This document shows positions 52,295 through 63,044 of a stretch of 63,044 bases of DNA, one piece after another (positions within the stretch are counted from its first letter, which is position 1; each line of letters opens with the position of its first letter). The DNA comes from Lachnospiraceae bacterium (lineage in GTDB: Bacteria; Bacillota; Clostridia; Lachnospirales; Lachnospiraceae), in NCBI GenBank assembly GCA_022510665.1, contig JAFLSZ010000004.1:1-63044 (forward strand), in the 5' to 3' direction. The notes beneath the pieces were generated by a model that saw nothing but the letters and a program-made list of their open reading frames with translations, did no database searches and was not told where the DNA came from. Both the position numbers and the translations under genes were made by a program.

Positions 52295-53710
52295 ATGATT
52301 TATTTCCGTACCTCGGCCTATAATGCCGAAAAGACACTGGCACGCACCATAGAAAGCATTTTAAACCAGACTTATGGGGAGTTTACGTACTATTTGCTGG
52401 ATAACGGTTCGAACGACCGTACCGGTGAGATTATCAGAGATTATGCGAAGCGGGATAAAAGAATTGTTCCGTTTTACAACAAACGAAACCGTGATTATAC
52501 GGAAAATCCGGATTTCTACTTTATTTCGCATAGGTTAGAAGACGAAGATTATTTTTGTATACTGGACGCGGATGATGTCTATGAACCGACCTTTTTGGAA
52601 GAAATGCTGAAATTTCTGACGGAAAATGAATTAGATATTGCAATCTGCGGCTCAAAGTTTATTGACGCTACCACGGGGAAAGTGTGCGGAGAGCATGTGC
52701 TGCAGCACGATTACGTTTTGGACGATGCGCAAAGCTTTGAGGCGTATTTTCCGATTATCCATTGGAACCTCAGGCAGGTATGGGGAAAACTCTACACGGC
52801 CAAAGCCGCCCGCGCCGGCTATAAGGCAACGGAGCAACCGGACTGGTTTCCGAATTATGGAAGCGATACGATTCAGGTTTATAAAAGAGTCGAGGCTTCC
52901 GAACGAATCGGCGTTTACGCCAAGGCACTTCATTGCTATACGATATCACAGGGTTCAGGTTCTTATCGATGGGATGAGAGCAGGAAAACGGATGACTTTG
53001 TTGTATTTGAAAAGGCAAAAGAGTTTTTGGAACAGAAATGCGGAGGGGTTTCCGGACGGAATTTGAGTTTTCTTTATGATGTACAGTTTAACGCACTGAA
53101 AGATACGCTTCGTGTTTTATACCGGTCGGATTTGGCGCCCGAGTGTAAAATCAGCGTTACAAAGGAGATTTTCCGGCATCCGGTGACAAAAGCAGTGTTT
53201 GTGGAAGAAACAATGAGTGTCACGAAAGAAAATAAAACCGAGTTTTTGACGGGGCTGGTGTGTCAGCTGATAGAACTGGCGCAGAACGTTGACGCGTCAT
53301 CGCTTTCGGATGTTTTTGAGATTTTTTCTTCGCTCAATGTGAATTTTCCGCGCTTTATTGCCGAAGAAAGTGTAGGCTGGTATGTGAAAATGCTTCCGGT
53401 AGTTATTCGGAATATTGCCCTGGGGGAATATGAATATGCGATGAATAATCTGATTGTTTACTTGGGAGGGGACAAGGAAACAAAACCTGAGTCGGATTTT
53501 CCGTTTGTACTTGGTCAGATGCTGGCGGCAATGCGGGAGGAAGAACAGAAGTATATTTTCTTTTCCAAAAAACTCATTCACTGGTGTATAGAAAACAATC
53601 AATTAGAACGCGCCCGATATGACTTGAATGACTGGCTCAAAATTCTTCCGGAAGATGAAGAATTGAAGGAATTAAGCAAAAAGATTTCTGCCTTTTCGGG
53701 AGCAAAATAA
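52295..53710 (+). CDS. family 2 glycosyltransferase with long C-terminal region
   Basis: 471 residues. The N-terminal GT-A domain has TSAYNAEKTLARTIESILNQTYGEFTYYLLDNGS and CILDADDVYEP (metal site). The next 250 residues extend past the usual GT2 size and are helical, with an acidic C-terminus; they may bind another component. AAAGGGGG precedes ATG 52295. It ends the polysaccharide module and is followed by the structured element at 53731. Confidence 0.85.
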   Translation: MIYFRTSAYNAEKTLARTIESILNQTYGEFTYYLLDNGSNDRTGEIIRDYAKRDKRIVPFYNKRNRDYTENPDFYFISHRLEDEDYFCILDADDVYEPTFLEEMLKFLTENELDIAICGSKFIDATTGKVCGEHVLQHDYVLDDAQSFEAYFPIIHWNLRQVWGKLYTAKAARAGYKATEQPDWFPNYGSDTIQVYKRVEASERIGVYAKALHCYTISQGSGSYRWDESRKTDDFVVFEKAKEFLEQKCGGVSGRNLSFLYDVQFNALKDTLRVLYRSDLAPECKISVTKEIFRHPVTKAVFVEETMSVTKENKTEFLTGLVCQLIELAQNVDASSLSDVFEIFSSLNVNFPRFIAEESVGWYVKMLPVVIRNIALGEYEYAMNNLIVYLGGDKETKPESDFPFVLGQMLAAMREEEQKYIFFSKKLIHWCIENNQLERARYDLNDWLKILPEDEELKELSKKISAFSGAK

Positions 53711-53730: not shown

Positions 53731-53890
53731 GGGCTGTTACACTAAGCGGCGGTGACTCCGGGCGTGGCGGATTCTTGCAAGCGGTTAGTATACCTGACTA
53801 ACTGAAAGGCGGCGAATTTCCCCTTGCATTAAGAGAAGATACTAGCCGCTTGTAATAAGGGGCCGCGCTTAGTGCGACAGCCCCTTATTT
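53731..53890 (+). ncRNA. 155-nt highly structured element, RNA or miniature mobile repeat
   Basis: The outer stem joins GGGCTGT-TA-CACTAAGC-GGC (53731-53750) with GCC-CG-GCTTAGTG-CG-ACAGCCC (53862-53883). An inner stem joins CAAGCGG-T-TAGTAT (53778-53791) with ATACTA-G-CCGCTTG (53839-53852). Alternative pairs also exist: GTTAG/CTAAC (53784-53788 with 53798-53802) and CCCCTT/AAGGGG (53820-53825 with 53857-53862). The right outer arm ends in CCTTATTTTT, so it can stop transcription. It is the only feature in the first half of the 354-nt gap before purM. No reading frame of use is present. Identity unknown. Confidence 0.6.
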
Positions 53891-53980
53891 TTCTTACGCC
53901 GGAATCCTTACGAACACCATAAGTAAAATTAATAAGTCGCATGAATATTTTTCGTCATAACCTACTAGGAAAAGGAAAAA

Positions 53981-54008
53981 AAGTATGCTATGATAAGTAT
54001 GCTATGAT
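53981..54008 (+). promoter_or_regulatory. tandem 14-bp duplication containing -10 boxes before purM
   Basis: AAGTATGCTATGAT occurs twice without a gap (53981-53994, 53995-54008). Each copy contains TATGAT, a good -10 hexamer. This gives two possible transcription starts 14 nt apart, 55-70 nt before purM. No strong -35 was found. The surroundings are A/T-rich and hold no gene. Confidence 0.6.
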
Positions 54009-54064
54009 AAAAGTAATTTTTCGGTTGTATTATCGGGATACAAAACGGACAGGAGGAAAAGATA

Positions 54065-62960: not shown

Positions 62961-62999
62961 ATATTCCGTAGATTGCACACTGTCTTATATTTGCATACG
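62961..62999. repeat. dispersed palindromic repeat, left arm only
   Basis: ATATTCCGTAGATTGCAC is followed by a diverged CTTATATTTGCATACG. This matches the left arm and loop of the 29815 palindrome. The right arm is not recognisable and the sequence continues to the window edge without a gene. Confidence 0.6.
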
Positions 63000-63044
63000 C
63001 AACGCTGCACCGGACTTCCTCTAAGAGCCGTTAAGCCGCTCGGG

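Follow-up and report, generated by a model that had tools for sequence, protein, structure and literature searches.

A probable core-less copy of a terminator-associated repeat family in Lachnospiraceae

The window analysed here, a 63,044-nucleotide stretch of DNA from a Lachnospiraceae draft genome, contains a family 2 glycosyltransferase gene (positions 52295-53710, forward strand; Pfam PF00535, E 5e-25) whose 3' flank holds a structured element, the stop codon lying 20 nt ahead of it. Positions 53731-53884 form a strong hairpin (-71.8 kcal/mol versus -50.8 +/- 3.9 in shuffled sequences, z -5.34, with 0 of 200 shuffles as good), and all of the parts described below are given on the forward strand. 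The outer stem, which a previous sequence-only reading of this DNA had put at 18 bp, is present and pairs the left outer arm GGGCTGTTACACTAAGCG (53731-53748; inverted repeat I1) with the right outer arm CGCTTAGTGCGACAGCCC (53866-53883) over 18 nt at 89% complementarity. Within it, the conserved left-side motif TCCGGGCGTGGCGGATTC (53757-53774), which is common to many full-length relatives, is followed by the inner stem P0, whose 5' arm TTGCAAGCGGTTAGTAT (53775-53791) and 3' arm ATACTAGCCGCTTGTAA (53839-53855) form 17 pairs in the predicted fold, slightly more than the 14 bp first described. The incompatible alternative pairings claimed in the same reading are also found, as 53854-53863 is complementary to 53880-53889 at 10 of 10 positions, which excludes the outer stem, and the right end of the element (53855-53892) folds on its own (-19.6 kcal/mol, z -3.9), again to the exclusion of the outer stem. 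This right end contains a terminator-like hairpin, GGGGCCGCGCTTAGTGCGACAGCCCC plus TTATTTTT (53859-53892), recognized from its fold energy and from standalone hairpins of the same class, and the T-rich tail TTATTTTT itself, at 53885-53892, bears out the poly-T end reported earlier. The element therefore has what defines an intrinsic terminator, a G+C-rich hairpin and then a T tract just after a gene, and the site, whose hairpin has bulges, was missed by a simple scan for consensus terminators.

Downstream of the element lies a conserved purM promoter block (about 53908-54019, forward strand) that is common to the nine genus relatives whose purM leader can be read. A tandem duplication within this block, AGTATGCTATGATAAGTATGCTATGATA at about 53989-54016, is single in the relatives read. 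The element is positioned upstream of the block and is absent upstream of purM in all nine of those relatives, which assigns it to the glycosyltransferase gene as part of the 3' flank. No empty orthologue of the window locus itself was found, the gene order in relatives being different.

The source genome contains many related sequences, although it is a draft of 136 contigs that is 86% complete, and all copy counts rest on that draft. A blastn search with the window element gives 47 matches, and the end sequence GGGCTGTCGCACTAAG, allowing up to two mismatches, occurs at 44 sites, which when read individually are L ends, R ends, and standalone hairpins. The left and right outer arms of the window copy are an L end and an R end, respectively, and by a scripted count the genome has 12 L and 17 R ends whose flanks are distinct. 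Identity between copies averages 91-94% within the ends versus about 30% in the flanks, the left and right halves of the window copy match other ends of the repeat at 85-96% identity over 50-95 bases, and a single version, with GGGGCTGTCGCACTAAG as its ends, has reached 17 sites or more. Beyond the L end the sequence continues with GGGGAGATTCGCCGCCTTATTTTTGCATTTGTCCGAAGG..., and GGGGAGATTCGCCGCCTTATTTTTGCA is likewise met when the R end is followed towards the inside of the element, which makes L and R the inverted arms of a single stem. Most copies are interrupted by the end of a contig, which is unsurprising because assemblers break at repeats. Indeed, a second copy of the family, represented by its core (62977-63044, reverse strand; model R1, 43.0 bits, E 3.5e-8), is cut by the contig end, and the contig of the window therefore itself breaks in the repeat. 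The standalone hairpins of the same sequence class lie 5-54 nt past the end of a gene pointing at them at 15 of 15 sites, a class that was scripted and is rough, since at least two of the 15 (L044 and L030) are element fragments. From this placement just after gene ends we take the hairpin class to be used here as an ordinary terminator.

In relatives, the intact unit is about 300 nt long and consists of a left motif, a variable stem, a conserved core of ~130 nt, the stem again, and the right end. The core is found in eight of the ten genus members, with 7-27 matches in each, and a covariance-model survey of 397 sampled Lachnospiraceae genomes, with scoring limited to seven candidates in each, detects it in 22 of them, which represent 20 genera. 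G127, a nearly closed assembly of five contigs, has at least seven core-model matches. When 64 cores are aligned, the consensus has 31 pairs, 14 of them with changes on both sides, and folds at -36.4 kcal/mol, while the opposite strand reaches only -17.6 kcal/mol. In the window orientation the paired cells include 152 G-U and 16 A-C, a count that is biased, this alignment being the one from which the structure was predicted. Cores also occur in pairs within a few hundred bases of each other, on the same strand in L194 and on opposite strands in L293, L303, and L304. Comparison with the L and R ends and with intact copies shows that the core and most of stem P1 are gone from the window copy. 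The two sides, ...CTGAAAGG on the left and AAGGCGGCGAAT... on the right, meet at a deletion junction, AAGG (53806-53809), and what remains of the 3' arm of P1 is CGGCGAATTTCCCC (53810-53823), for which the R-end consensus is GGCGGCGAATCTCCCC.

The genes flanking the copies are unrelated to each other. For 78 copies with genes on both sides, taken from simple ORF predictions, the right-hand gene points at the element in 62 and only six gaps are divergent. Orthologous loci are informative at three genes that we take to encode TyrRS, TrpRS, and MurG, named by eye from the sequence without a family search. The TyrRS site has a bare terminator in G004 and G002, and the terminator with arms and core in G003, G001, and G007. 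A core-less copy with terminator and both arms, like that of the window, is present in the TyrRS 3' flank of G006 (L228). The TrpRS site is empty in G005, G002, and G004 and occupied in G003, G007, G006, and G001. Thus, orthologous sites that lack the element are a bare intrinsic terminator, and those that have it are a terminator plus the element.

No family in Rfam 15 is matched at the gathering threshold by the window element, by full-length relatives, or by distant copies, in agreement with the earlier statement that the element resembles no known RNA family, although TwoAYGGAY (RF01731) is a close architectural relative. One full-length copy compared with Rfam at E values up to 5 gave weak sub-threshold matches only, none of them to TwoAYGGAY over the core. 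In a blastn search with the window element, phage and plasmid records gave no match, viral contigs had no match to the core pattern, and no account of such elements in Lachnospiraceae was found in the literature searched, which was covered in part. The matches listed for TwoAYGGAY itself over the cut-off number 148 and come from nine of the ten genus genomes, the source genome having none, and they amount to 6-33 copies per genome in eight of the ten and one in a ninth. Like the present family, it has a conserved structured core on long, copy-variable arms and many copies per genome, the paired arms extending beyond the Rfam model (L256-L285), a likeness of design, not identity, for which a script placed under half of the 30 loci. 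It also takes the same position at the MurG 3' flank, where the present core is found in G004, G002, G006, and G000 and a TwoAYGGAY core occupies the same place in two sister species, G005 and G003 (model matches G005:C392:3943-4107 and G003:C19:27778-27941). In contrast, its core sequence is different and it is absent from the source genome. The window, the full-length relatives, and the distant copies have no RF01731 match over the element, the sole matches in the latter two groups being neighbouring elements that lie outside it. The present family is therefore a relative of TwoAYGGAY in design that is uncatalogued in Rfam 15, and by the Rfam model it is not a TwoAYGGAY member.

Two other kinds of element invite comparison. 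Group IIC introns insert just after terminator hairpins, which is like the terminator-side position seen here, but no Rfam intron match was found in our sequences. REP and BIME elements are, like the present family, extragenic palindromes in the 3' flanks of genes, but REPs are 20-40 bp (PMC3733652) whereas the present units run to about 300 nt and contain a conserved core.

Long paired arms flank nearly all copies, and the core-adjacent stem of about 25 bp differs in sequence from locus to locus. Over 86 copies the arm pairs comprise 4664 Watson-Crick, 131 G-U, and 211 A-C. In a chosen set of 18 locus pairs, for most of which the neighbouring gene indicates orthology, there are 78 two-sided compensated changes versus 38 G-U and 39 A-C, where three of the pairs align poorly and one of those three (L124/L155) was included without an orthology check. 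Copies in distant genera have the same design with unrelated arm sequence, as in L296 where 31 of 31 positions are paired. Considered as guides or spacers, the arms gave no matches in 0.98 Mb of sequence other than related elements and a few short ones. Selected RNA stems normally retain G-U more often than A-C, and since G-U is not in excess over A-C on the core-folding strand, the matching of the arms appears, on that strand, to be maintained at the DNA level. The A-C excess is G-U when read on the opposite strand, where there may be weak selection, and a selected RNA stem with rapid turnover could be an alternative source of arms that are both paired and variable. Template switching in replication can create and maintain matched stems (PMC8794818). 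The stems resemble textbook compensatory evolution, yet the missing G-U excess points to a process at the DNA level, and the arms serve as a warning that covariation alone is insufficient proof of RNA function.

We propose that the window element belongs to a repeat family seated at intrinsic terminators and is a copy that has lost its core through an internal deletion, and we give this reading as a whole a probability of about 0.75. Specifically, the right-hand hairpin and T tract would now be the putative terminator of the glycosyltransferase gene, separating that gene from purM. New copies would come from insertion or from template switches between terminators that are nearly identical, and template switching in DNA replication, rather than selection on RNA pairs, would keep the arms matched. 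The present role of the window copy is likely transcription termination, at most. An ordinary intrinsic terminator and nothing more might be read from a terminator-like hairpin located 20 nt after a stop codon, but this is highly improbable and already contradicted by the two halves, which over 50-95 bases match the repeat's other ends far beyond the extent of a simple hairpin. Still less credible is the switchable RNA before purM raised by the sequence-only reading, in which a riboswitch or attenuator would control purM in cis through the alternative pairings. Its mutually exclusive stems and T-rich end do lie upstream of purM, but such a switch is expected to be conserved in the leader of the gene it regulates, and we rejected it given that the element precedes the conserved purM promoter block, is missing from all nine relatives' leaders, has other copies at the 3' ends of unrelated genes, and has no Rfam match.

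The miniature inverted-repeat element that the same reading offered is nearer than the switchable RNA, and its many genomic copies are borne out, although its classical form is not. As a classical MITE, the repeat would be a non-autonomous transposon with terminal repeats GGGGCTGTCGCACTAAG that is moved by a transposase acting in trans. It is indeed short, repeated, and non-coding, with precise, inverted ends and many near-identical copies in unrelated flanks, as in bacterial MITEs. Unlike in those elements, however, the arms vary between loci outside the amplified class. No target-site duplication was found beside the window copy, and pairs of L and R flanks match no better than chance even with shifted boundaries included, true pairs being uncertain in a draft. 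Among the 44 end-sequence sites, in the stretches read of this 86% complete genome, none was recognized as the end of a full insertion sequence that could be an autonomous partner. The same end sequence is also found as plain terminators, and overall we consider transposase-driven movement improbable. An only slightly less doubtful explanation is a functional RNA, either a 3'-UTR or a small RNA, with a core that would bind a protein or ligand and a mobile look that is secondary. In its favour, the core is strongly conserved and covaries in one strand, it is spread over 20 genera, and orthologous loci are occupied in several species. Against it are the arms, which have no G-U tolerance on the core-folding strand, the folded strand, which in relatives is mostly antisense to the abutting gene, the tight flanking of some copies by terminators that leaves no room for a promoter, and the window copy, which has no core.

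A broader and more tentative hypothesis, which we would put at somewhat less than an even chance, is that the present family and TwoAYGGAY represent one undescribed Lachnospiraceae class in two versions. In this class a conserved core that folds in a single strand would settle at intrinsic terminators and the long arms would be rewritten at each locus by DNA template switching, such that stems could stay matched and hypervariable with no need for selection on RNA pairing. The family behind the window element deserves follow-up. A structured core that is uncatalogued in Rfam 15 recurs beside ordinary housekeeping genes in 20 Lachnospiraceae genera, and insertion at terminators can be tested directly, some sister sites being empty and others occupied. 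At the MurG site, the two terminator-like hairpins read as inverted copies of each other, not as direct ones.
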